From a virus, in the IMG/VR virus record IMGVR_UViG_3300030117_001716, positions 1 to 33,113 of that record: 33,113 bases of DNA. The stretch is one strand, 5' to 3'. Positions 16,249 through 32,528 of the stretch are shown piece by piece. The notes beneath the pieces were generated by a model. It did no database searches and was not told the origin of the DNA. It saw only the letters and a program-made list of their open reading frames with translations. Both the position numbers and the translations under genes were made by a program. Numbering within the stretch: position 1 is the first letter of the stretch; the number at the start of each line of letters is the position of its first letter.

Positions 16249-16892
16249 TAAGCAACATCCCTTCTAACTCTATCATACCTATACTGATCTCTAGTTTGAA
16301 GACCTTCACCAAGATTTTTCAACCATTGAAGTGATTCTTGGAACCTAGCATTATAAAGTTGAAGCAAATCAGCCTCTCCTTTCATAAAGGTATACGCCTC
16401 TACTAAACTACCGTATAGAAGAGCAAGTTCCGCATTATCCCCCAAATAACTTGTTCCATCTCCACTGGCAGTAATAGAAGTAGGTCTGTAAAAATAATGA
16501 AGCTCCATCGTGTAGTTTGAGTCAGGAGTAGGAGCTAATAAAAAAGTGTCGTTATCCCAATCTGCATAAAACCTGGGAGTTCCTGTTGTAGCTGGATTAG
16601 GTGTAAAATCTTGTAAAGCCGTAACATTTTTATACAAAAGAAACTCTTTGCTAGAAGAATTAATTACACTCAAAGAATTTTGAGCTAGAAAATCAGTTGG
16701 TTTAGATAAATACTGATTTCCAGATGTAGCAGAACCTTGAACATTTTTTCTAAATACATCTAATTGACATTCTTTAAGAATACGTTCTTCTGCATTTAAA
16801 ATAAAACGAGGTAACTGATTAACAAAAGTCGTTTCCGTATTTTGTGTATAATCTTGGATAGCTGTTTTTAAAGTTGTAAATGTATACGCCAT
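16248..16892 (-). CDS. Head-tail adaptor-like protein (214 aa)
   Basis: The N-terminus (TLKTAIQDYTQN, then FVNQLPRFILNAEERILKEC) is the conserved pattern of the short-tailed-phage adaptor family (SU10-adaptor type), which joins the portal to the tail. The middle holds LHYFYRP and the C-terminal part is helical (EAYTFMKGEADLLQLYNARFQESL). I chose the ATG at 16892 (MAYTF), two bases after the upstream stop, rather than a GTG at 16901. Position downstream of capsid genes and upstream of the nozzle gene agrees. Confidence 0.82.
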   Translation of the reverse strand: MAYTFTTLKTAIQDYTQNTETTFVNQLPRFILNAEERILKECQLDVFRKNVQGSATSGNQYLSKPTDFLAQNSLSVINSSSKEFLLYKNVTALQDFTPNPATTGTPRFYADWDNDTFLLAPTPDSNYTMELHYFYRPTSITASGDGTSYLGDNAELALLYGSLVEAYTFMKGEADLLQLYNARFQESLQWLKNLGEGLQTRDQYRYDRVRRDVA

Positions 16893-19637: not shown

Positions 19638-20546
19638 TTATGCGCCTTTAGATCCATACACACAACGAGGATCAGAGAAACCGAAGCTATAACGCTCACG
19701 GGCTTTGAACCTTACATTGCCAGTATCGAAATCGCCTTCCATCTTTGTGGACATAGGCATACGCTCAAAATGAACGAAGCCACGAGGAGCATCCGTCTTA
19801 ATGAAGAACGCATCTGTGTCCGTCAAATAATGGTTAACAACATAACCCTGCGGAAGCATACCCATGTTACGTATTGCATTAACATCGTTGTCCGCAGAAC
19901 CTGGACGAAGAGTGGACTCAAGAAGACGATCCGCAACAAATTGAAGACTTGGTGGGACAATCAGTTTTAATCCACGAACCGATACTTTAAGACCACGCTC
20001 ATCAACAAAAGCTGAAATGTCAATAAGAGCATTCTCAAGACTGGTTTCGTTTAGGTCAGCATCAGTGCTGGGTTCATTACGAAGCGTACCGTTATTTACA
20101 AGTGGATGGTCTGTAGCACAAAGCTCTTTTCCATCACCTCCTGTAAAGTTGCTATCAAAAGCATTGTTTAGTACTGCAGCAGCTTTCACTTGTTTAGTGT
20201 TAGACATGCTACGAGCCAAAGCTTTTGTGTAGCGAGAAGCAAGACGGTCATAAAGATTATCTTCAATTGCTTCCTCTGTAATAGAAAAGGCAAGTGATAT
20301 AGTCTCATGCGTATACCGTGCTGTGTACGCTTCTTGTGCATCATCAAAAGAAACTGCGGAACCTTCCTGTTTAACGGGTGCTGACCCAAAACCAGAAAGC
20401 ATCACTTCTTCTTCAAAGGCACGCTCTGAAGACTCAGTGTCATATATTTCCGTAGATTCATCTTCATACCGGGCATACTCAAGGCCGAAAAGGGCGTTGA
20501 GACCTGGCTCTAGCTCTTTAGCTAGTTGGGCTCTACTAATAGCCAT
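19638..20546 (-). CDS. Major capsid protein, HK97 fold
   Basis: A 302-aa capsid subunit. The pattern ISRAQLAKELEPGLNALFGLEY at the N-terminus, ETISLAFSITEEAIEDNLYDRLASRYTKALARSM (the spine helix region, residues 80-115), ATDHPLVN (about 143-150), GLKLIVPPSLQFVADRLL and PRGFVHFERMP are those of Mu-gpT-like/HK97-type capsid proteins of marine short-tailed phages. The length agrees with a protein lacking a cleaved N-terminal delta domain; scaffold is a separate gene (21702-22589). A consensus AGGAGG ribosome binding site precedes the ATG, a terminator follows the stop, and its G+C and C-ending codons look higher than in neighbouring genes, all consistent with very high expression. Confidence 0.93.
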   Translation of the reverse strand: MAISRAQLAKELEPGLNALFGLEYARYEDESTEIYDTESSERAFEEEVMLSGFGSAPVKQEGSAVSFDDAQEAYTARYTHETISLAFSITEEAIEDNLYDRLASRYTKALARSMSNTKQVKAAAVLNNAFDSNFTGGDGKELCATDHPLVNNGTLRNEPSTDADLNETSLENALIDISAFVDERGLKVSVRGLKLIVPPSLQFVADRLLESTLRPGSADNDVNAIRNMGMLPQGYVVNHYLTDTDAFFIKTDAPRGFVHFERMPMSTKMEGDFDTGNVRFKARERYSFGFSDPRCVYGSKGA

Positions 20547-21701: not shown

Positions 21702-22589
21702 TTAATCCCTCACATATTTAGCATATTCTTCAAGTGGTACATTTAACCTCTTTGCAATAGCAACTTGAGAAGGTGTTAATCGCACAGTTTTTCGTCCACT
21801 TCTATTGCGGGATGCAGAAGACTCGGCTGACGCAACCTTACGGCTTCCCCCGTTATTTTTAGACTTAACATCAAACTTCTGAGGAAATTCAGATCTAAGT
21901 CTTTTGTCCAATTCAGCATAGTATTCATCAGACTGAGGGTCAAACCCTTCATCTTCAATTAATCGTCTATGAATACCAAAAGCACCATATGTCATAACTT
22001 CATCCTGACCAAACCATTCATTTTCTTGCGCCCAAGCTTCGGCTTTAGGATCAGGAGGAGGAGCAGGAGGGGCAGAAGGTGCTGATGTTGTTTTACTTTT
22101 TTCCTCAGATGTTTCACGTGAAACATTTTCTTTTTCCGCTCTAACGGCTTTTAAAGTTCCCTTTTCAACACTGAGAGTTGCTAAAGCTTCTTGAGCTTCA
22201 ACAATTTTATCAACGTCCCCCGTCTCATGAGCTTGCTTTAAAATTTCTTTTGCAGATTCAATTTGATTAGAAACTCTGCTTTCAAACTGTTCTTGATAGC
22301 CTTTATCTAAGGATTGAATACGTTCTTTTAAACTATCATTTTCCTTACGAACATTTTCAGCATATTGAATAGCTGTTTGCTTTTGACGTTCCTCTTCTCG
22401 AAAACGTTTTGTCAAATTGTTTATTCTGCTTTTTACACCAGAACTATAATCATCAAGTTCCGTTTCAGAAGCTGGTTCAGCAGATACTTTAGTAGTTTCA
22501 GTACCTTCTCCTTTGGAATCCTCTGAAAGATTTACATCTACTGCATTTTCTTCAGTGTCACCAATATCAATTTTAGTTTCTTCAGGCAT
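21702..22589 (-). CDS. Scaffolding protein
   Basis: A 295-aa acidic, highly charged protein with long coiled-coil (residues about 45-155), a Pro/Ala/Ser linker (SAPSAPPAPPPDP, about 168-182) and a more basic C-terminal end, the usual design of a phage scaffold that binds the inside of the capsid shell through its C-terminus. It lies two genes before the capsid gene. No protease active-site motif is visible here or in the neighbours, so it is probably released intact as in P22/T7-like phages. A perfect parS site (22110-22125) is embedded in the codons for NVSRET near residue 157. Confidence 0.87.
   Translation of the reverse strand: MPEETKIDIGDTEENAVDVNLSEDSKGEGTETTKVSAEPASETELDDYSSGVKSRINNLTKRFREEERQKQTAIQYAENVRKENDSLKERIQSLDKGYQEQFESRVSNQIESAKEILKQAHETGDVDKIVEAQEALATLSVEKGTLKAVRAEKENVSRETSEEKSKTTSAPSAPPAPPPDPKAEAWAQENEWFGQDEVMTYGAFGIHRRLIEDEGFDPQSDEYYAELDKRLRSEFPQKFDVKSKNNGGSRKVASAESSASRNRSGRKTVRLTPSQVAIAKRLNVPLEEYAKYVRD
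22110..22125. promoter_or_regulatory. parS-like ParB-binding site 1, inside the scaffold gene
   Basis: TGTTTCACGTGAAACA, a perfect 16-bp palindrome identical to the bacterial parS consensus bound by ParB. The palindrome extends by one base on each side. It is in the linker-flanking part of the scaffold gene, encoding NVSRET. Confidence 0.85.
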
Positions 22590-22618
22590 GGTTTATCTCC
22601 ATGGTCACTTTCTTCTTT

Positions 22619-23107
22619 CTATACATGTTTAATATCGTCAGGTTCTAAAATAGTAGCAATAACCTCATCATCATTAATGATTCGGATCTCCCCTCCATCA
22701 ATTCTAAATCGAGCACCAGCATATCTGCCAATACATACCCAATCTCCTTCTTTACACCAAGGATTAACTTCAGGGCCAAATTTACTGGGATCTTGATAAG
22801 CAAGAGGACCAACCCTCAATACATACGCCACCACAGTAGCAAGAGCTTCTCTGTCACGAACTGAATCAGGAATATAAACACCTCCTTCTGTTGTGGCTTT
22901 ACCCATGTATGGCATGACAAGAAGTCGCCATCCTGTAGGTTGTGGAAGTCTCTCTTTTAATTTTTTGGAAACAAGAGAAGGGTCAAGAACTTTATCATCT
23001 CTATTAATGTAAGCTGATGTTACATTTGTTTCTTTACTTTTCTTTTTAGATTTAGCTTTCTTTTGCGAATCCATAATATGATCTGGAACGTATAGTGTTT
23101 TAGCCAT
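22619..23107 (-). CDS. GroES-like co-chaperonin (Cpn10)
   Basis: A 162-aa protein. Residues 1-50 are a basic extension (QKKAKSKKKSKET). Residues 55-162 match Cpn10/GroES: PTGWRLLVMPY at the start of the barrel, KATTEGGVYIPDS as the mobile loop that contacts GroEL, then the barrel strands GDWVCIGRYAG and IINDDEVIATI. It would cap host GroEL and favour folding of phage capsid protein, as known for T4 gp31-type cofactors. It is in the head module, directly upstream of scaffold. The mobile loop keeps the GG-hydrophobic-hydrophobic core, so GroEL binding is likely. Confidence 0.9.
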   Translation of the reverse strand: MAKTLYVPDHIMDSQKKAKSKKKSKETNVTSAYINRDDKVLDPSLVSKKLKERLPQPTGWRLLVMPYMGKATTEGGVYIPDSVRDREALATVVAYVLRVGPLAYQDPSKFGPEVNPWCKEGDWVCIGRYAGARFRIDGGEIRIINDDEVIATILEPDDIKHV

Positions 23108-23298
23108 TAGTCCTCCGATGACTGCAAGAGATCTTTAATCTCTTGTTCTGCAAACTCTAATCCTATTAGTTCTCCGACTAATTGCCTATAAGACTCCATG
23201 TCTTTAGGATTGCCGTGAAGGATTGAGTCTTGGGTTAATTCTATGCGACCTTGTATAGACTTTAATATAGAATAAGCAAAGGTCGTTGGATCTGCCAT
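23107..23298 (-). CDS. Small conserved phage protein (63 aa), hypothetical
   Basis: An acidic helical protein (MADPTTFAYSILKSIQGRIE, ESYRQLVGELIGLEFAEQEI) without recognised domain. Its stop overlaps the co-chaperonin start (TAATG). The pattern of a helix, a short SYRQLVG turn and a second helix is common in small marine phage head-module proteins of unknown role. Confidence 0.75.
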   Translation of the reverse strand: MADPTTFAYSILKSIQGRIELTQDSILHGNPKDMESYRQLVGELIGLEFAEQEIKDLLQSSED

Positions 23299-23300
23299 TT

Positions 23301-23615
23301 TTAAAAAGATCCTCTAAAGTTTTTACCTTTTATGGCCCCACCCTTAGAGTACTTGATAGGTCCACGTTTAGTTTCTTTCATAACTCCACCACGCATGTAA
23401 CCAAGTTCGTCTACAGACCCACCCATTTCATACATTTGAACTTCTAATTTTTCTCTAGCTTTTTCTGATTGTTCTGGAGTAGATTTTTTAAGAATAATCA
23501 TGGACTGTTCAACATCATAAGGATTTTCTTCTTCTTTAGAAGTAGTTATCCCCATAGCCTCAATAACATCAGCATCAGAAACTTCTTCTTTTTGATCCTC
23601 TAAAGTGCTTCCCAT
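23301..23615 (-). CDS. Small protein with acidic N-terminus and basic glycine tail (104 aa)
   Basis: Unknown. Residues 1-40 are acidic; residues 70-104 are basic and Gly-rich (YMRGGVMKETKRGPIKYSKGGAIKGKNFRGSF). The tail ends with -GSF and is a looser form of the GG...K/R...F tail on several neighbours. Linked to the upstream gene by TAATG. Perhaps an assembly or packaged minor protein; no function can be given. Confidence 0.73.
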   Translation of the reverse strand: MGSTLEDQKEEVSDADVIEAMGITTSKEEENPYDVEQSMIILKKSTPEQSEKAREKLEVQMYEMGGSVDELGYMRGGVMKETKRGPIKYSKGGAIKGKNFRGSF

Positions 23616-23887
23616 TAGAAAACCCTCGTTTTCATAGCCATGCCGCCATCGTTGCGGTTTAGCATTTCTTCAAGCATACGTTTCTTAGAAGCTTCAGTAT
23701 CACTGTCTGAGGGGGAACTTTCTAATAATCTACGCATCAAACGAAGATCACCGTCAGACATCATAGAACCACTCATTTTACGCATTGCACGAAGACGATC
23801 AGCATCAGAAATTGTTCTTCCAGACTCGTCCATCATTATACGCCTTGCACGAGCAAGATCATTATCAGAAATTGTTCTTCCACGCAT
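23615..23887 (-). CDS. Small protein with three ISDxD repeats and GGxxxKTRVF tail (90 aa)
   Basis: Three tandem units fill residues 3-55: GRTISDNDLARARRIM, GRTISDADRLRAMRKM and GSMMSDGDLRLMRRLL. The second unit with its preceding residues (DESGRTISDADR) nearly matches GESGKTISDGDR in the 842-aa internal virion protein. The tail is DGGMAMKTRVF. The gene ends and begins in stop/start overlaps. No known family; the shared motifs suggest it is part of, or docks onto, the virion interior. Confidence 0.75.
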   Translation of the reverse strand: MRGRTISDNDLARARRIMMDESGRTISDADRLRAMRKMSGSMMSDGDLRLMRRLLESSPSDSDTEASKKRMLEEMLNRNDGGMAMKTRVF

Positions 23888-24183
23888 TAGAATGTTCCTT
23901 TTCCATCATTGTCATTGTAAGTAAAACCCTTAACTTGAGCAGGAGGAGTTCCCTGAATACGAGCCATGCCTCCATCGGCCATATAACCCATTTTATTTCT
24001 AACTTCAGTCGGTAATTTTGCTAGTCCTGGATTTTTAGCTTCATCTACTTCTTTTAAAGCTGAACCGCCCTTTTTCATATTCATATCATTCATTACACTT
24101 GCTTTTTTCATAAGATTACTCGCTTCCCTTTTAGAAATGCCCATTTGCTCTGACATCTGGTTTTTCATTCTACTTCTAGCCAT
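23887..24183 (-). CDS. Small basic protein (98 aa), hypothetical
   Basis: Basic, Met- and Lys-rich. Contains GISKREASNLMKKASVM, KNPGLAKLPTEVRNKMGYM and ADGGMARIQG; ends with DNDGKGTF. The ATG at 24183 overlaps the preceding stop as TGATG; a TTG at 24186 is less likely. The phrase GLAKLPTEVRNKMGYMADGG is a conserved module in small marine phage proteins by my recollection, with no known role. Confidence 0.75.
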   Translation of the reverse strand: MARSRMKNQMSEQMGISKREASNLMKKASVMNDMNMKKGGSALKEVDEAKNPGLAKLPTEVRNKMGYMADGGMARIQGTPPAQVKGFTYNDNDGKGTF

Positions 24184-24494
24184 CAAAAAATCCTCACTTT
24201 TTTAACAACACCACCATGACCACGTTTTCTTCTAACAGCTTTAACTCTTCTAGGCTTGCCAGCAGGTTGTCCTAACCTTTTCTTTTGAGCAATTCTAGAC
24301 TTTTTTTCAGAAGATGTTAATTCACTTGCTGTTTTAGGAGTTTTTTTAGATACACGCTTACTAGGTCTGCAATAAGGAGTACCTCTTTTCTCACCTTTCT
24401 GTCTTCCACAAGGTTTACCAGTTTTTACGTCAACCCAGTTCTCTTTGAACCAACGTTTAAGATCTAAACCTTTTTTTGTCTTTCGGACAGCCAT
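24183..24494 (-). CDS. Small lysine/arginine-rich protein, DUF5872-like (103 aa)
   Basis: Residues 7-45 (KKGLDLKRWFKENWVDVKTG, PCGRQKGEKRGTPYCRPSKR) match a short conserved domain I associate with DUF5872, seen in phages and large DNA viruses: WFKExWVDV followed by PCGR and YCRP, with two cysteines. The rest is a very basic disordered tail ending GHGGVVKKVRIF. Net charge is strongly positive, so nucleic-acid binding is likely. It is in a run of basic genes coupled by overlaps. Confidence 0.78.
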   Translation of the reverse strand: MAVRKTKKGLDLKRWFKENWVDVKTGKPCGRQKGEKRGTPYCRPSKRVSKKTPKTASELTSSEKKSRIAQKKRLGQPAGKPRRVKAVRRKRGHGGVVKKVRIF

Positions 24495-24688
24495 TAAAAC
24501 ATCCTAGCTTTACGAACTCTAGAAATTACCGCCCCACCGACACCACGTTTTGTTTTATTACCGTAGTTTTTAGCACCTACCTTACGGCACTTTGCAATCG
24601 CACCAGAAGCATAGGCACTAGGAAAAACTCTATAACGAGCTTTTACTTTGTGATAACAGGCATCTTTCTTAGACTTGGTTTTAGACAT
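24494..24688 (-). CDS. Small basic protein with CYHKVKARY motif (64 aa)
   Basis: Starts MSKTKSKKDACYHKVKARYRVFPSAYASGAIAKCRKVG; the CYHKVKxRYxVxPSAYASGxxxKCRKVG module is a conserved short domain of phages and giant viruses, usually listed as uncharacterised. The ATG at 24688 overlaps the upstream stop (TAATG). The tail is GVGGAVISRVRKARMF, a further example of the basic tail ending in Phe. Strongly basic; DNA-binding or packaged role is inferred. Confidence 0.78.
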   Translation of the reverse strand: MSKTKSKKDACYHKVKARYRVFPSAYASGAIAKCRKVGAKNYGNKTKRGVGGAVISRVRKARMF

Positions 24689-24987
24689 TAGCACCTCCAC
24701 CTTCTACGAGCTTGCCTAATACGAGAATTAGGATCATTACGGGTTTTAGCAGAACTTTTCTTCAACTGACCCAGAGATCTAGCACAAAAACTTTTTCTAC
24801 GTTTAGCAGCTTTACTACCGGGCTTTACCTTTCCAGTAACTGCCGTTTTTAATTTAGATCCAGGATTAGCCTTTCTATATGCAGCAACACCTTTCTTTGT
24901 CATTCCTGCACCACTTTTGGTAGGGCGATAGTTAGCACCCTTACCTTTTGTAGTTCTTCTAATCTGTTTTTCTGTTCTCTTTGCCAT
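24688..24987 (-). CDS. Small basic protein, DUF6321-like (99 aa)
   Basis: Contains KSGAGMTKKGVAAYRKANPG, LKTAVTGKV, GSKAAKRRKSFCARSLGQLK and SRIRQARRRWRC, the pattern I associate with the uncharacterised DUF6321 family found in phages and large viruses. Very high Lys/Arg content. It lies directly downstream of an intergenic parS site (24990-25005). A role in binding packaged DNA is plausible; not shown. Confidence 0.78.
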   Translation of the reverse strand: MAKRTEKQIRRTTKGKGANYRPTKSGAGMTKKGVAAYRKANPGSKLKTAVTGKVKPGSKAAKRRKSFCARSLGQLKKSSAKTRNDPNSRIRQARRRWRC

Positions 24988-24989
24988 AT

Positions 24990-25005
24990 TGTTTCACGTG
25001 AAACA
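24990..25005. promoter_or_regulatory. parS-like ParB-binding site 2, fills an intergenic gap
   Basis: TGTTTCACGTGAAACA, identical to the site at 22110. It occupies 16 of the 18 bases between the start of the gene at 24987 and the stop of the gene at 25006, so the gap consists of almost nothing else. Confidence 0.85.
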
Positions 25006-25677
25006 TTACTTTTTACTGTATAAATTGTCAAAAGTTACAGATGGATCCATATAACTACCATCAGATTCTGCGCTATGTGTCCATTGACTTGGCCTAAAAT
25101 CAGGAGCTCCTTCTCCTGTTTCCCACAAAGCGGGACTTGTCGCTCTAACTCTATTATTGGGTAACGCTACTATGTTCCCTGTCCATTCTCCTGCATCTGT
25201 AAGTTCAATTACATGACTTTGTTTATGCTGGGCAGGATCATCTGAAATAGAAGATCCTGTATAATCAACTGTAAACATGTATTTACCCGTATAAAATTCA
25301 CCATCTATCTTACAAAGCCAAGGACTAGAATTAGTTCGATCATAAACTATTACAGCATGATCTCTAGAACTACAGTCCCATGGTTGAGCAAGATGTGTTA
25401 CCATTCTTTCAGGCCATTCCTCTAATGGCGTATCTGCTACGAGAGCAGTAATAGGCATTCTAGCCCACATAGCACCCCCGTGAATGTTTTCTTCGTCCGT
25501 ATCGTCACTTTCACAGCCTGTAAAAATAACTTGAAAGCTTAAACAACGATCTGGAATTGTATTAACCGCTATAACCATCGCATGAAGAAATTCTCCATGA
25601 TACTTATTGTGATTATGCGTAAACTCTCTTCGCACCCAGCAATGAAAATGCGGGATGTTGCTTTGTAAATATGCCAT
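25006..25677 (-). CDS. Conserved marine phage protein (223 aa), hypothetical
   Basis: MAYLQSNIPHFHCWVRREFT, HGEFLHAMVIAVNTIPDRCL, FQVIFTGCES, HGGAMWARMPITALVAD and HAVIVYDRTN form a strongly patterned, probably enzyme-like or compact beta protein, rich in His, Trp and Cys. By recollection it is conserved across marine phages but without known function. It is the only non-basic protein in this stretch, sitting between two basic-protein genes and adjacent to the parS site. No catalytic motif recognised. Confidence 0.78.
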   Translation of the reverse strand: MAYLQSNIPHFHCWVRREFTHNHNKYHGEFLHAMVIAVNTIPDRCLSFQVIFTGCESDDTDEENIHGGAMWARMPITALVADTPLEEWPERMVTHLAQPWDCSSRDHAVIVYDRTNSSPWLCKIDGEFYTGKYMFTVDYTGSSISDDPAQHKQSHVIELTDAGEWTGNIVALPNNRVRATSPALWETGEGAPDFRPSQWTHSAESDGSYMDPSVTFDNLYSKK

Positions 25678-25679
25678 GT

Positions 25680-26012
25680 CTAGCGTCTAACGCCACCACG
25701 AGCCATACCTTTCTTTTTCATAGCACCGCCCATTTTGCGCTTCACACCGCCACGGGCCATACCCTTCTTTTTCATAGTACCACCCATTTTGCGCTTCACA
25801 CCGCCACGGGCCATACCCTTTTTCTTCATAGCACCGCCCATTTTGCGCTTCACACCGCCACGAGCCATACCTTTCTTCTTCATAGTACCGCCACGAGCCA
25901 TACCCTTTTTCTTCATAGTACCGCCACGAGCCATACCTTTCTTCTTCATAACCATCTTTTTTTTCCTTGTACCAGTTAACTGTTTGGGGATATTTGAACG
26001 AGATATAGTCAT
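25680..26012 (-). CDS. Lysine-rich repeat protein (MKKKGMARGG repeats)
   Basis: A short leader (MTISRSNIPKQLTGTRKKKM) is followed by six copies of MKKKGMARGG, four of them separated by VKRKMGG. Nearly a third of the residues are Lys or Arg, with no acidic residues in the repeats. Probably disordered, binding DNA or the inner capsid. The ATG overlaps the upstream stop (TGATG). The DNA repeats make the gene prone to length change. Confidence 0.78.
   Translation of the reverse strand: MTISRSNIPKQLTGTRKKKMVMKKKGMARGGTMKKKGMARGGTMKKKGMARGGVKRKMGGAMKKKGMARGGVKRKMGGTMKKKGMARGGVKRKMGGAMKKKGMARGGVRR
25684..25955 (-). repeat. Tandem repeats encoding MKKKGMARGG units
   Basis: Near-identical units of 30 or about 57 bases (short and long spacing) run through the gene; units differ mainly at synonymous positions such as the Lys codons. 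Typical of slippage or unequal recombination. Confidence 0.85.
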
Positions 26013-26344
26013 CAGAATACTCTTGTTTTTATAATAATTCCACCACGATTTTTAGCACGATGTTTCTTTCTTAGTTCTTCTTTCGCCTTACGAGCAATTT
26101 GAGCTTGTTTCGGTTTATTAGCAAATTTACTTCTCTGTTCCATAACAGTAAGAATTTGTATCTTTCTAGCGTAAGGTTTCTTTATACGTTTAACTTTATT
26201 AGCTGTTGCCTTTGCGTCAGCAATAGTAGCATACTTTATAGGAACAGTATCTTTAGGGTTTTCGTCCGTATACAGTCTTCTACCTGATCCTTTAGGTTTT
26301 TTACCTGTTCCTACCTTTGGATCTTTTCGTGATGAACTAGACAT
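26012..26344 (-). CDS. Small basic conserved phage protein (110 aa) with GGIIIKTRVF tail
   Basis: VGTGKKPKGSGRRLYTDENP, KDTVPIKYATIADAKATANKV, RIKKPYARKIQILTVMEQRS: a basic module common in marine phages by my recollection, function unknown. The tail NRGGIIIKTRVF shares its last five residues with the protein at 23615-23887. It belongs to the run of small basic genes between portal and scaffold. Likely virion-associated or DNA-binding, by inference. Confidence 0.78.
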   Translation of the reverse strand: MSSSSRKDPKVGTGKKPKGSGRRLYTDENPKDTVPIKYATIADAKATANKVKRIKKPYARKIQILTVMEQRSKFANKPKQAQIARKAKEELRKKHRAKNRGGIIIKTRVF

Positions 26345-26352
26345 AATAACCC

Positions 26353-26568
26353 CTATTTTAAAATAAGTTTTACAATGTGCTTTTCGCCCAAATACAACTC
26401 TAACTCTGCCTTAGATTTTAGGCATTCAAATCTAACATTACCACCCGTTTTTATTTGCCTCATGGCAACCCGTTTTCCCTTTAAGCAGGTAGACATGGAT
26501 TTTTGTATGCGATGTTCTTTGATTTCGTTATCAACTATCATCAGTAAAGCTATCACGGTTTCAATCAT
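26353..26568 (-). CDS. Small protein with N-terminal hydrophobic segment (71 aa)
   Basis: Residues 1-13 (METVIALLMIV-like) are hydrophobic, then a charged segment with two cysteines (STCLKGKRVAMRQI, VRFECLKSKAELEL). The N-terminus is short for a full membrane helix but could be a signal or anchor. Its ATG overlaps the preceding stop as ATGA. The pattern recurs in marine phages without a known function; a periplasmic lysis accessory is one possibility. Confidence 0.72.
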   Translation of the reverse strand: MIETVIALLMIVDNEIKEHRIQKSMSTCLKGKRVAMRQIKTGGNVRFECLKSKAELELYLGEKHIVKLILK

Positions 26569-26945
26569 TTTTGAATCTCGTTATCACTTTTGTAATGCAT
26601 ATCCCGTGCTTTATCCTTTAACTCTTCAATGTCTTCCAACGCTTTTTCAAGCTGTTTTTCAACGTGCGTGAGCATCACCTGGTTATGAATGTTCTTATCC
26701 AAAAGTTCTTGATGCTTCTCAACCGTTTCATACAGGTCTTCGAGAAGTAAAAACTGTTCCTTATCCACCGTTGTTTGTTCTGAAGCCTTGAGCAGATCAG
26801 CGTTCATAAGCTCTCTTGATGTTTCAAGAGAAGTTAGTCTGGCAGTTATCTCTGTATATGCAAAAATACCCATAGATACACCTATGATTATGCCCACCAT
26901 GTTTTTAATTGGCATAGCGACTGATGTTTCTGAGCTAACTTTCAT
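26565..26945 (-). CDS. Membrane-anchored coiled-coil protein (126 aa)
   Basis: One membrane helix at residues 13-32 (KNMVGIIIGVSMGIFAYTEI) is followed by a long coiled coil to the C-terminus (residues 35-120), rich in Glu, Leu and Lys. This is the design of inner-membrane spanins and related lysis helpers, but no partner lipoprotein is visible. Overlaps the preceding 35-aa gene by ATGA. Confidence 0.75.
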   Translation of the reverse strand: MKVSSETSVAMPIKNMVGIIIGVSMGIFAYTEITARLTSLETSRELMNADLLKASEQTTVDKEQFLLLEDLYETVEKHQELLDKNIHNQVMLTHVEKQLEKALEDIEELKDKARDMHYKSDNEIQK

Positions 26946-27049
26946 TTTTTCTTCTTAGAACCCCAACACCTACGCCAAAGCCAGGCATCTAATGTGCTTA
27001 TACAGGAAGCTACCTTTCTCATACATTTGCTATGAAATATAAACTCCAT
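26942..27049 (-). CDS. Tiny cysteine/tryptophan/lysine-rich protein (35 aa)
   Basis: MEFIFHSKCMRKVASCISTL, then DAWLWRRCWGSKKKK: three Cys, three Trp and a KKKK end. Its ATG shares bases with the portal stop (TAATG) and its stop shares bases with the next start (ATGA), so it is locked into the cluster on both sides, which argues that it is translated. Its basic, aromatic, amphipathic character suggests membrane association. No family recognised. Confidence 0.65.
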   Translation of the reverse strand: MEFIFHSKCMRKVASCISTLDAWLWRRCWGSKKKK

Positions 27050-29439
27050 TACTGCTTTCTTTCTTGTTGCTCCATACGTTCTCTATTTACTTCTGCACGT
27101 AAAAGCGCAATGTCTTCTTGAGAATCCATCTTTTCTCTTACAAGTTCTTGACGCTCCTGTTCTTTCTTTTGATCAAATAAGTGCTGTACAGCAAACTCTT
27201 CAGACTTACGTTGTATATCAGAAGCCTTAATATCAAGCTCTTTAGAACGAAGTTGGACAAGAGGATCTACTTCACCCTCTGGCGGTGGCATAAAGGCTGT
27301 CATAACTTCCTCTGTATATTGAGCAGTTAGCTCTGCAACCTTTGCCTCCACATCCATTTGAGGAGGTTGTTGTCCCATTTGCATCGCTTGTTCCATAACC
27401 ATACGCATTTCCGCATCAGCTACACCACGAGCTTTAAAAGCAATGTGTTCACATATATGTGCTTGAAGCAGTCCGAAAACAGGAGGAGAGGCCGCAACAA
27501 TAGGTGTTTTCATGAATATAATGTGAGCTGTTATATGAGCATCATGATCCTGTGTTGGAAAAGCTTGCAAAGTTTCTTGTATAATTGCCTTGGCATTTTC
27601 AATGGATGGATCCGTAGGCTGTTGAGGTTGAGGAGTTGGTAACAACGCCTCTATGTTATGAACTCCTATAGCCTCATAAATACGCCTGTAAGCCTCGTGA
27701 AGATTATGCATCTGAGGATTACTTTGAGCTAATTGTAATTGTGTTTGTGCTAACGCTAAACGTTGAGACATTGAAAAAATATTAGGATCTGAAACAGGTA
27801 TAACATCCACTCGCTCATCAAAGTCTACCTGCTTAATCATCGTCTCTCCACCATAAACATTATATGGATACATAGGAGGAAGTGATTCTGCAAATACACG
27901 ACCTAACATTTTAAATTCTTGTTTCTGAGCATAGTGAAGTCTTTTATGTATGGCTGACATCACCTTCGATCCGCGCTCCAAAAGAGCAACCGTTGTACCA
28001 ACAGCGGCTGATTGATTTCCATCCCCAACCTGCATATCGGCAATGGCTGCAAATCTTCGACCTGCATCCACAACAAAACCCAGTAAACCCATTAACGTCT
28101 GACTAGGCTCCTTGTACGGTAACGGTAAGATACTTTCTCGTAAAGCACCACCGGGTACATCAATATCGCGAAACTCACCAGGAGACAAAGGCTCATCAGC
28201 GTCACGAATTCTAATACCACGAGCTTTAAAACCAGCGGGAAGATTAGCAAGTGTTCCAGCATCAATTAACTGCCTTAAAATAGAAGTTGCAGAACGACCT
28301 AATCCACCAATCATGTGCAAAAGGCCAAACCCATAAAAACCTAAACCTGGTAGAAACTTGTAATGTGCAAAGTATTGTATCTTTCGATAGTAGTCGTCAC
28401 CCTCTCTCCAGTTTCTTCTAATAGATAAAATATTAGAACTGCCCTCATCAATAGTTACAATGTAAGGAAGTTTAATTCCTGTTTGTTCCCCATCAATAGG
28501 ACTGGTATGTTCAAACCCAGGTAAATCAAGATCAGTGTGAACTTCAAGAATGGTGCAGTCTTGATCGTCAGCACCCGTCTTTTCAACACCCATTAACTTA
28601 CGTTCTTTTTCTTTTAGTTCATCATCTGAATCATACGCGGTAAGTTCAATGTCTCTGTAAAATCCTGCAGCTTGAAACTTACGAACATCATTTGTATTCA
28701 TTCGAATTACATGAGTAATACGAGAAGCAGAATTTAAATCTGTGGCACTGTACGGAACAAGAAGATCATCCGCAGGGACAAACCGAGATACAGCTCGATC
28801 TAAAATATCATCGAAATATATTTTTTTAAAAGCACTTCCGGCCAAAGGTAAATAAAATAGTAAGCGATCCATCTCAGGATCATATTCATCCATAACATGT
28901 GTTATTTGATAATTCATAAATTCCTGAACACGTTGAGCTTGCATCTCAACTTCAGGTGTTGCTGCACCAACAACCTGAGTTCGAACAGGACCAGAACTAG
29001 GAAGAAGTTCTCTATAGGCTTGCGCCTGAAACTGTGTAACAGCCTCTGCTATAATTGGATGAGTAACACCACTTGACCCTCGAAAAGGTTCCTCACGTGT
29101 TTCATATTTAATACCAAGAAGATCTAAACCATCCGTATAAGCATCTTCCCATTCCTGACGGCCACTTTTATCATCTTCATAATATCCAACCAGTTCTGAA
29201 GAAATATCCATCAGAACTCTTTCATCCATAATTTCAGCTAAATTAGCATCAGGCTCTGACTGAAGCTCTTCATTAACTATTTCACCAAAGTTCAAAAGAA
29301 CAGATCCATCCTCTTCTTCCGTTACTTCTGTAGGATCCTCGATTTCTTCAACCTCTATTTCTTCTTCATCATCACCTAAAGGTATCCCTTGAGAAGGCAT
29401 GGAGGTATCTATTAATGAAATAGGTTCATCAGCCATCAT
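27049..29439 (-). CDS. Portal protein, P22-type
   Basis: A 796-aa portal, the dodecameric channel for DNA at one capsid corner. Pattern: acidic N-terminal arm (residues 20-70), then FRGSSGVTHPIIAEAVTQFQ (about 119-138), PLAGSAFKKIYFD, RNWREGDDYYRKIQYFAHYK, and the helical stem region (GRSATSILRQLIDAGTLANL, ALLERGSKVMSAIHKRLHYA). The C-terminal 120 residues are a charged coiled coil (barrel-like extension). Length is at the large end for portals, as in P22-like phages. Either of two ATGs (29439 or 29436) can be used; both overlap the holin stop. Confidence 0.93.
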   Translation of the reverse strand: MMADEPISLIDTSMPSQGIPLGDDEEEIEVEEIEDPTEVTEEEDGSVLLNFGEIVNEELQSEPDANLAEIMDERVLMDISSELVGYYEDDKSGRQEWEDAYTDGLDLLGIKYETREEPFRGSSGVTHPIIAEAVTQFQAQAYRELLPSSGPVRTQVVGAATPEVEMQAQRVQEFMNYQITHVMDEYDPEMDRLLFYLPLAGSAFKKIYFDDILDRAVSRFVPADDLLVPYSATDLNSASRITHVIRMNTNDVRKFQAAGFYRDIELTAYDSDDELKEKERKLMGVEKTGADDQDCTILEVHTDLDLPGFEHTSPIDGEQTGIKLPYIVTIDEGSSNILSIRRNWREGDDYYRKIQYFAHYKFLPGLGFYGFGLLHMIGGLGRSATSILRQLIDAGTLANLPAGFKARGIRIRDADEPLSPGEFRDIDVPGGALRESILPLPYKEPSQTLMGLLGFVVDAGRRFAAIADMQVGDGNQSAAVGTTVALLERGSKVMSAIHKRLHYAQKQEFKMLGRVFAESLPPMYPYNVYGGETMIKQVDFDERVDVIPVSDPNIFSMSQRLALAQTQLQLAQSNPQMHNLHEAYRRIYEAIGVHNIEALLPTPQPQQPTDPSIENAKAIIQETLQAFPTQDHDAHITAHIIFMKTPIVAASPPVFGLLQAHICEHIAFKARGVADAEMRMVMEQAMQMGQQPPQMDVEAKVAELTAQYTEEVMTAFMPPPEGEVDPLVQLRSKELDIKASDIQRKSEEFAVQHLFDQKKEQERQELVREKMDSQEDIALLRAEVNRERMEQQERKQ

Positions 29440-29843
29440 TTACTCACTTTCTTAAACTTTTCAAAAGTTCTAAGACCACCCAAACCGAGTAATCCCATCA
29501 GAATAGGCATCATTTCTCCAAGATCCATTTTCGGTAAATCAACTAAATACCCTGTCTGAGCTAAAATAAAACTTAAAATCGGAGTTATTACATACGCCCA
29601 CGTCAAAGCAAATCCACATACCCAGCCGATAAATGGCCTCCACCCGGACACAAAAACAGATCTATGGGCAGCTTCCGTTTTGTTAATATCTAACTGAGCA
29701 AGATCAATCTTTGCAAGATGAGTTGCAAGCTGTTTCTCAAGATCCCGCTCTGCTTTCGCACGAGCCTCTTTATCTTCAGGCAAAAAACGTCCAACAACTT
29801 TAGTAACTGCTGGAAGTAGACTAGGTAATAATGCTTGTATCAT
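29436..29843 (-). CDS. Holin, 3-TM gene-transfer-release type
   Basis: A 135-aa protein matching the GTA_holin_3TM family: acidic/basic helix at residues 22-60, HRSVFVSGWRPFIGWVCGFA (60-79) leading into a membrane span to about 97, and a second span ending in MPILMGLLGLGGLRTFEKF (112-130). It would permeabilise the inner membrane so the endolysin at 1551-2000 can act. AGGGGG six bases before the ATG is a strong ribosome binding site. A perfect parS site lies 18 bases upstream of the start codon. Confidence 0.92.
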   Translation of the reverse strand: MIQALLPSLLPAVTKVVGRFLPEDKEARAKAERDLEKQLATHLAKIDLAQLDINKTEAAHRSVFVSGWRPFIGWVCGFALTWAYVITPILSFILAQTGYLVDLPKMDLGEMMPILMGLLGLGGLRTFEKFKKVSK

Positions 29844-29861
29844 GTGTAACCCCCTATCAAA

Positions 29862-29877
29862 TGTTTCACGTGAAACA
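29862..29877. promoter_or_regulatory. parS-like ParB-binding site 3, upstream of the holin
   Basis: TGTTTCACGTGAAACA, third perfect copy; here the palindrome extends to 22 bp (29859-29880). It lies in the 73-base gap between the holin start and the upstream gene, right before the holin ribosome binding site. ParB or another dimeric protein bound here could affect holin expression. Confidence 0.85.
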
Positions 29878-31004: not shown

Positions 31005-32465
31005 CTAATAATATTGTCTCGCTTGCAAACGAGCCATAGGTTCGTCTTCTTCTTCATCGCTGTCAAGTCGAAGAAACCCCCCTTTACGGTATCTAATAAG
31101 TGCCATGGACATACTATCACAAAAGTCATCATGTTCGCCATTGGGAAATGCAGCACACTCCTCGATGACTTCCTCCGAAAATTTTCTCTCTGGAGCCCAC
31201 ACCTTGCCAGACTCAAATATAGGCGCAACCATATGCATCCTCGTATGCTTATCACGACCCTTGGACGGTGTATAATTCACAACAGGTATACCCATAATCC
31301 TTAACTCGTCCGTGAGCGGTGTTCCACTGGCCTTGGCCTCAATCAATACCATGTCAGGCTCCCAGTAATCATACTCCTCCATCGCCTGGGATTTCAACTC
31401 AGGAAAATCCCAGCGTCCACGCTTCGCATCCATGAGAATTATGTTGTCAGGACCACCCTCCTCCGGCTGAAATATACCCCACGTGGTAATCGCAGAGTAA
31501 TCAGCCGTCTCCTTCTTGCTAAAAGCAGTATCATAACTCTGCATAATATAACTAACAGGAGGTATGGACTCCTTCTCCCACTTGTTCCACCACTCCTTCT
31601 TTATAATCGCACCCTCTTCAGCCGTGGGATTCTGCTGCCACTGAGCGTTCCACTTGCCAACCGATAACGAAGCCTTGACCTTTAATAACTCATCCTTGTT
31701 CCAGAACTCCGGCCAAAGAACATTGTCACTCGGAAGTATGGCCGGAAACTCCACAACATCCCACTGATCCGACATCACATCATTCGCCTGAGACCGAATC
31801 AACTTACCCGTCAAATCCTTCAACGACCACCTCGTCATAACAACAACTATCGAACCACCCGGCTGTAACCGCTGACGAGGACCAGAAGTATACCACTCAT
31901 ACGCATTCTCTAACGCACTGTCCGATAAAGCATCCTGCTCCGAATGCGGATCATCAATAATCAGCAAATCCGCACCACGACCAGTAATCGCACCACCAAC
32001 ACCCGCAGCAAAATACTCACCACCCTGACCCGTCTCCCAACGACCAGCAGCCTTCGAATCCGCACGCAAATCAACATCAGGAAATATCTCACGGTATATA
32101 TCAAGCTCCATAAGATTCCTTACCTTACGACCAAACCGAACCGCTAACTCCGCAGTGTGAGTCGTCTGAATAATCTTTAACTCTGGATTCTTGCCAATCA
32201 ACCAAGCCGGTAAAAGATAACTCGCAAACTCAGACTTGGTATGCCTCGGAGGCATGTTGACAATGATCCGTGAACCAGGACTAACCGCCAGCTTCTCAAA
32301 CTGCCTCGCTACCTGCTTATGATGAGTCCCCTCAATAAAACCATCATAAACATGCTTCACAAAAGCCATGAAATCATTCTGAGCAATATCCCGTACAGAA
32401 AGCTTGCGCTTGGCCTCTTCTAAAGCCAAAATCTCACGCATTATCTCATCAGAAGCATTTAACAT
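31005..32465 (-). CDS. terL: Terminase large subunit
   Basis: The DNA-packaging motor, 486 aa from the ATG at 32465 (a longer reading adds a hydrophobic, unlikely N-terminus). ATPase: Walker A-type MPPRHTKSE (71-79), Walker B LLIIDD (167-172). Nuclease: YDTAFS with Asp312, IEAKASGT with Glu376, and EHDDFCDS with Asp446/447. All expected catalytic acidic residues are present. Walker A has Thr where most relatives have Gly (RHGKS). It is the first gene of the leftward late cluster. No small terminase subunit is recognisable nearby. Confidence 0.95.
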   Translation of the reverse strand: MLNASDEIMREILALEEAKRKLSVRDIAQNDFMAFVKHVYDGFIEGTHHKQVARQFEKLAVSPGSRIIVNMPPRHTKSEFASYLLPAWLIGKNPELKIIQTTHTAELAVRFGRKVRNLMELDIYREIFPDVDLRADSKAAGRWETGQGGEYFAAGVGGAITGRGADLLIIDDPHSEQDALSDSALENAYEWYTSGPRQRLQPGGSIVVVMTRWSLKDLTGKLIRSQANDVMSDQWDVVEFPAILPSDNVLWPEFWNKDELLKVKASLSVGKWNAQWQQNPTAEEGAIIKKEWWNKWEKESIPPVSYIMQSYDTAFSKKETADYSAITTWGIFQPEEGGPDNIILMDAKRGRWDFPELKSQAMEEYDYWEPDMVLIEAKASGTPLTDELRIMGIPVVNYTPSKGRDKHTRMHMVAPIFESGKVWAPERKFSEEVIEECAAFPNGEHDDFCDSMSMALIRYRKGGFLRLDSDEEEDEPMARLQARQYY

Positions 32466-32528
32466 TATTACGCTCAAGGTATAAAATAAACAACATAACA
32501 AAAACATACACAAAAAGGAAGATCATTA
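32466..32528. promoter_or_regulatory. Divergent intergenic region, likely start of the late cluster
   Basis: Sixty-three AT-rich bases separate the terminase start (-) from the small zinc-ribbon start (+). It should contain promoters for both directions. A TATAAAAT-like sequence lies at 32481-32488 (+) and on the - strand TTGTGT and TATTTT are 18 bases apart, but neither is convincing. The ribosome binding site AAGGAAG of the + gene is at its right end. Confidence 0.4.

Follow-up and report, generated by a model that had tools for sequence, protein, structure and literature searches.

Exact parS copies among the late genes of a podophage

Three exact copies of TGTTTCACGTGAAACA, the 16-bp palindrome that is the bacterial consensus for chromosomal parS, lie in the packaging and head region of a phage in which no ParB was detected. 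These are very probably genuine chromosomal-type parS sites under selection, through which a phage lacking ParB would load the ParB of its host on this region. The window (the whole stretch of DNA analysed, 33,113 nt) corresponds to bases 1–33113 of a linear virus record of 33,715 bp, and the copies occupy 22110–22125, 24990–25005 and 29862–29877, the three positions given in a preliminary description of this DNA. Tolerating up to three mismatches revealed no fourth copy in the window, and the search for more sites that the description had proposed, extended to the whole 33,715-bp record, returned no further exact copy. Its statement that the number of copies is beyond chance was borne out: 100 dinucleotide-preserving shuffles of the window, with three mismatches allowed, gave a mean of 0.20 matches and a maximum of 2, and three were never reached (0/100). 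The sites and the genes around them are as follows.

22110..22125, no strand: parS site; exact match, window-specific, intragenic
24990..25005, no strand: parS site; exact match, same junction in six relatives, apparently ancestral in the window clade
29862..29877, no strand: parS site; exact match, window-specific
19638..20546, minus: major capsid protein (tblastn against annotated capsids: DSL-LC04 74%, HTVC023P 69%)
21702..22589, minus: scaffold-like gene carrying site 22110 (phrog_28737, function unknown; position before the capsid gene)
22619..23107, minus: co-chaperonin GroES (phrog_3188; Cpn10)
24688..24987, minus: small basic protein, DUF6321, directly downstream of site 24990 (Pfam PF19846)
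25006..25677, minus: gene directly upstream of site 24990, PHROG label 'ferredoxin' (phrog_3704, E=4e-31)
27049..29439, minus: portal protein (phrog_1216; SU10_portal)
29436..29843, minus: holin-like gene (phrog_3427, E=5e-30)
31005..32513, minus: terminase large subunit, terL (phrog_38, E=1e-106; Pfam Terminase_6C)

As first described, the sites fall among late genes, which we place on the minus strand. None is beside a replication origin or parAB genes; their neighbours are terL, portal, small genes and the scaffold-like gene. Site 24990 takes up the interval between the stop codon TAA of ORF 25006–25677 and a point 2 nt before the ATG of ORF 24688–24987. Site 29862 is in a gap between terL and portal, 18 nt upstream of the holin-like gene, while site 22110 is read in frame within the scaffold-like ORF, where it codes for VSRET in a variable linker.

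The window is part of the genome of a podophage that has the pelagiphages HTVC027P and HTVC023P as distant relatives. TerL, portal and capsid assign it to the type of these two phages, and GroES and DNA polymerase A are also present. Its TerL is ~63% identical to that of HTVC027P and its capsid 68% (68–74% across HTVC027P, HTVC023P, 023Pt_psg01 and DSL-LC04); no match at the nucleotide level was found among cultured phages. Phages of the HTVC027P/HTVC023P type (~58–61 kb genomes) share homologous TerL, portal, GroES and capsid and the gene order with the window phage but differ from it in lacking a true parS. Since complete genomes of HTVC027P/HTVC023P-like type measure 57–62 kb, the window record holds slightly over half a genome. 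The GC content of the window is 0.39, and the range among relatives (0.37–0.61) suggests that these phages have several hosts. A search for the host of the window phage through TerL, in Alphaproteobacteria and then the whole phylum, gave no close match.

A run of small basic ORFs separates portal from GroES. Within this hypervariable run of tiny basic ORFs, ORF 25680–26012 consists of repeated lysine-, arginine- and glycine-rich units. The gene labelled 'ferredoxin' and a gene of HTVC027P annotated as PurM match one and the same ORF of a relative (G443), and thus one of the two labels is probably wrong.

Conservation and placement of parS in relatives

Relatives were gathered by TerL alone and were therefore unselected for the presence of parS. 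In the window clade, parS was found at two or fewer mismatches in 15 of the 16 loci that fully span terL to groES, mostly 4.2–8.4 kb after the terL start, which is just past the portal gene. In the sister clade (that of L086), it was present at the same threshold in 8 of 11 loci, 16–150 bp upstream of terL. Sixty composition-matched control palindromes, made from the shuffled half-site, gave no locus with an exact or one-mismatch copy in any set. Across 31 non-redundant contexts (flanks <60% alike), the 16 core columns averaged 1.87 bits and the flanks 0.18 bits. Of 42 window-clade sites, only 15 were entirely enclosed by an ORF on the same strand, whereas this held for 93% of random positions between portal and groES, and sites often fell exactly between a stop codon and the following ATG. 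The earlier claim that the sites are canonical parS under selection is upheld by the contrast between core and flanks, the empty controls and this enrichment at junctions. Several relatives carry the variants TGTTCCACGTGGAACA (both arms changed), TGTTCCACGTGAAACA or TGTTTCACATGAAACA, some of them symmetric, and all three are recognised parS forms. Most relatives keep a single site, but three loci (L459, L467 and L472) have two different parS forms 23–24 bp apart, in G443 sites flank terL (1.8 kb upstream, 0.5 kb downstream), and the site of G447 is between terL and portal.

The conservation check proposed in the preliminary description gave a divided answer, with site 24990 shared and relatives' sites confined to a constrained zone, and sites 22110 and 29862 private to the window. 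The junction that holds site 24990 also carries a copy in L125, L126, L127, L129, L130 and L146, and a decayed one in L133. The homologous regions of L125–L127 hold no counterpart of sites 29862 and 22110, and at the position of the latter relatives carry other residues. On this comparison, only 24990 is ancestral in the clade and the other two were gained in the window lineage; the gain of two extra exact copies argues for current selection. Some sub-clades have no site (for example, L490–L497, L518 and L506), and none was found at two or fewer mismatches in HTVC023P, 023Pt_psg01, DSL-LC04, Caulobacter phage RW or the part of CRP-901 that was covered, so parS is not essential. On the TerL tree, presence and position classes together require 11 changes and presence alone 6, counts that are descriptive because site-bearing loci were let in more freely than empty ones.

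The terL leader of the L086 clade is conserved apart from the sites, which vary in their offset and occur on either side of an AT-rich element resembling a promoter; some relatives share this leader yet have no site. Placement is thus tolerant of position but confined to one module, a pattern consistent with a loading and spreading protein rather than with a classical operator. Insertions may simply be tolerated in the terL leader and in the zone of small genes after portal, and this possibility lessens the weight of position as evidence for gene control.

Apart from parS, loci L442–L516 of the L086 clade have a near-palindrome, AGGGGCCCCT (variants AGGGTCCCCC and AGGGACCCCT), which precedes the start codon of terL by a few bases and is conserved whether parS is present or not. 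It is possibly a packaging, promoter or RNA element.

Search for ParB and the likely reader of the sites

The ParB domain (PF02195) was absent from the window record, in agreement with the first reading of the window, and from 24 relatives. The same was true of 40 family records that include the complete HTVC027P, HTVC023P, 023Pt_psg01 and DSL-LC04, and of 19 more, giving 0 of 84 (the window and 83 others). Among these parB-less records are near-complete or complete genomes of 55–62 kb that carry parS. The PF02195 search recovered ParB in 10 of 14 control genomes, and a ParB profile built from SAR11 genomes found no match in the complete relatives. The relative G897 (58,115 bp) bears one parS just upstream of terL and is effectively complete, since its first bases recur near its end; no ParB, ParA, integrase, partition or replication-control family was among the 25 of its 29 Pfam families that were listed. 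ParA-like families numbered 0 in the 28 window ORFs scanned, from a record that is incomplete, and 0 among the listed families of G897.

ParB is encoded in 14 of 18 SAR11 genomes, most of which hold one core parS ~1–1.5 kb from parB. SAR11 bacteria are the hosts of the nearest cultured phages, and the host of the window phage may differ. In two SAR11 genomes with a phage TerL (G052 and G350), no site was present in the regions examined. Given a SAR11 ParB with a core parS nearby and no ParB in the phages, host ParB is most likely the natural reader of the phage sites. It is also the best reading because the sites are selected, occupy a constrained zone and occur in relatives without ParB. Between the two options originally offered, host ParB recruited by the phage or a phage ParB encoded elsewhere, the evidence favours the former.

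Proposed output and rival explanations

On the phage genome as on the chromosome, ParB dimers would recognise the palindrome, form closed clamps with CTP and spread for kilobases along the DNA. Spread over the terL–portal–capsid module, ParB would restrain late transcription while phage genomes are few; replication would then dilute a fixed pool of ParB and free the late module. Titration of ParB away from the host centromere would be a secondary effect. That lytic marine phages use host ParB in this manner, as a copy-number-sensing brake on packaging and head genes, is a tentative proposal, possible rather than probable. ParB of Pseudomonas aeruginosa represses promoters next to the intergenic parS3 and parS4, but not beside intragenic parS (PMC5521831), and the ParB proteins of F and P1 silence genes across kilobases (PMC7333895); restraint of the late module is therefore the output that we favour. 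The intragenic position of site 22110 counts against gene control.

The sites could instead act as a centromere decoy: every replicating phage genome would be a catalytic loader of ParB, and together they would strip it from the few parS sites of the host and disturb host segregation and division to the benefit of the phage. With one core parS on most SAR11 chromosomes, the host site would be outnumbered by tens of phage copies; ectopic parS far from the origin harms Caulobacter crescentus and P. aeruginosa (PMC7333895), and two additional sites were gained in the window phage. A decoy would need no fixed position, yet the sites stay in the TerS–terL–portal–groES zone, near terL in one clade, and most relatives have only one, which leaves this explanation somewhat unlikely. 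We also regard as unlikely, and a little more so, that parS-bound ParB loads host SMC, engages ParA or does both, and so condenses or positions phage DNA near the packaging module for replication or packaging. ParB–parS does load SMC and organise chromosomal DNA (PMC10197239) and the sites are close to the terminase and portal genes, but G897, a complete relative, shows no partition or replication-control gene among its listed families and some relatives do without a site. A different reader or role of the 16-mer is improbable, whether as the target of a phage regulator, as an RNA hairpin or as a linker at which mosaic modules recombine. Placement at stop/ATG junctions is typical of linkers or intercistronic hairpins; however, the palindrome is that of chromosomal parS, known variants included, its contexts are unrelated (terL leader, gene junctions, a coding linker), the stem letters lack the drift expected of a pure hairpin and an Rfam search gave no match.

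The window record covers 33.7 kb of a genome type of ~58 kb, and a phage-plasmid with a standard partition system could have its own ParB outside the fragment. The absence of PF02195 from all 84 family records, near-complete and complete parS-bearing genomes of 55–62 kb included, and of ParA and integrase from the families listed for G897 makes this highly improbable. With the SAR11 profile also negative on complete relatives, we rejected a phage-encoded ParB elsewhere, for which the preliminary description had advised a parB search, and the plasmid-like carriage that it had considered finds no ParA, integrase or partition family among those listed for G897. Chance or coding coincidence does account for one case: the 14-base parS core of HTVC027P, at position 16412 of its record, consists of codons of a conserved nuclease motif, FHVKHP. 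Third-position identity among 15 FHVKHP homologues is 0.70 at the site and 0.72 elsewhere, a normal synonymous drift that indicates no constraint at the DNA level, and HTVC027P was discarded as a parS carrier. For the window and L086 clades, where sites are mostly non-coding or at junctions, the DNA is exact and the 60 control palindromes gave 0 matches, this explanation is refuted and its probability is negligible.

Relation to known systems

Chromosomal parS of ParABS systems (Hyphomonas neptunium, Caulobacter and Bacillus subtilis) has the same 16-bp palindrome and the same variant forms, and in both settings there are few sites per replicon. The phage sites differ in that they are on a virus without parB, and with no parA found, in the packaging and head region rather than beside an origin. 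Phages P1 and N15, cluster A mycobacteriophages and cyanophage Mic1 likewise carry a ParB-type centromere. These, however, have their own ParA/ParB, system-specific centromeres and inheritance as prophages, as described for the private centromeres of mycobacteriophages (PMC3585329) and Mic1 (PMC7156551), whereas the sites reported here are of the host type and no Par genes were found with them. The repression proposed for the late module resembles the clamp-mediated repression near the site by KorB of plasmid RK2 and by P. aeruginosa ParB at parS3/parS4; in those cases the repressor comes from the same replicon, whereas the window phage would borrow that of its host. A genome survey of HTVC023P-type phages makes no mention of parS or ParB (PMC9599517). 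Our literature search, whose scope left aside preprints and most subscription journals, found phage-encoded ParABS and no host-type parS in ParB-less phages.

Few DNA sites are as widely conserved across bacteria as parS. A phage bearing this sequence can therefore reach the segregation machinery of the chromosome in almost any new host with no need to bring a protein of its own. If the proposal is correct, ParB would be added to the few host chromosome-maintenance proteins that lytic phages exploit, and these phages would offer a simple test case for ParB spreading that controls genes or for extra centromeres that harm the cell.

parS in cultured and unrelated phages

The cultured pelagiphages offer no instance of these sites. 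The Alcaligenes phage vB_Af_QDWS535, which is distantly related (capsid 47%), has TGTTCCACGTGGAACA at 47934, in a 54-aa ORF (47878–48042) that is the first rightward ORF of the late strand, ~2.2 kb before terL on the circular map. No ParB was detected in QDWS535, which is a single but testable cultured case.

In the whole viral collection, TGTTTCACGTGAAACA occurs in at least 120 contigs, against 0 and 11 for two scrambled palindromes, and ParB is present in 4 of 50 unrelated parS-bearing viral contigs. These counts suggest a wide occurrence among phages of parS unaccompanied by parB. In unrelated contigs, the ORFs that flank parS encode, among others, phi29-like packaging proteins, microvirus-like proteins and two cell-cycle regulators of the GcrA type; several phage groups may commonly carry host-type parS. 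A second phage group, whose TerL is 27% identical to that of the window, has three to five exact parS copies within ~1 kb (L047, 10535–11462; L020, 2657–3444; L056, 240–961), and the cluster of L047 is just upstream of terL.
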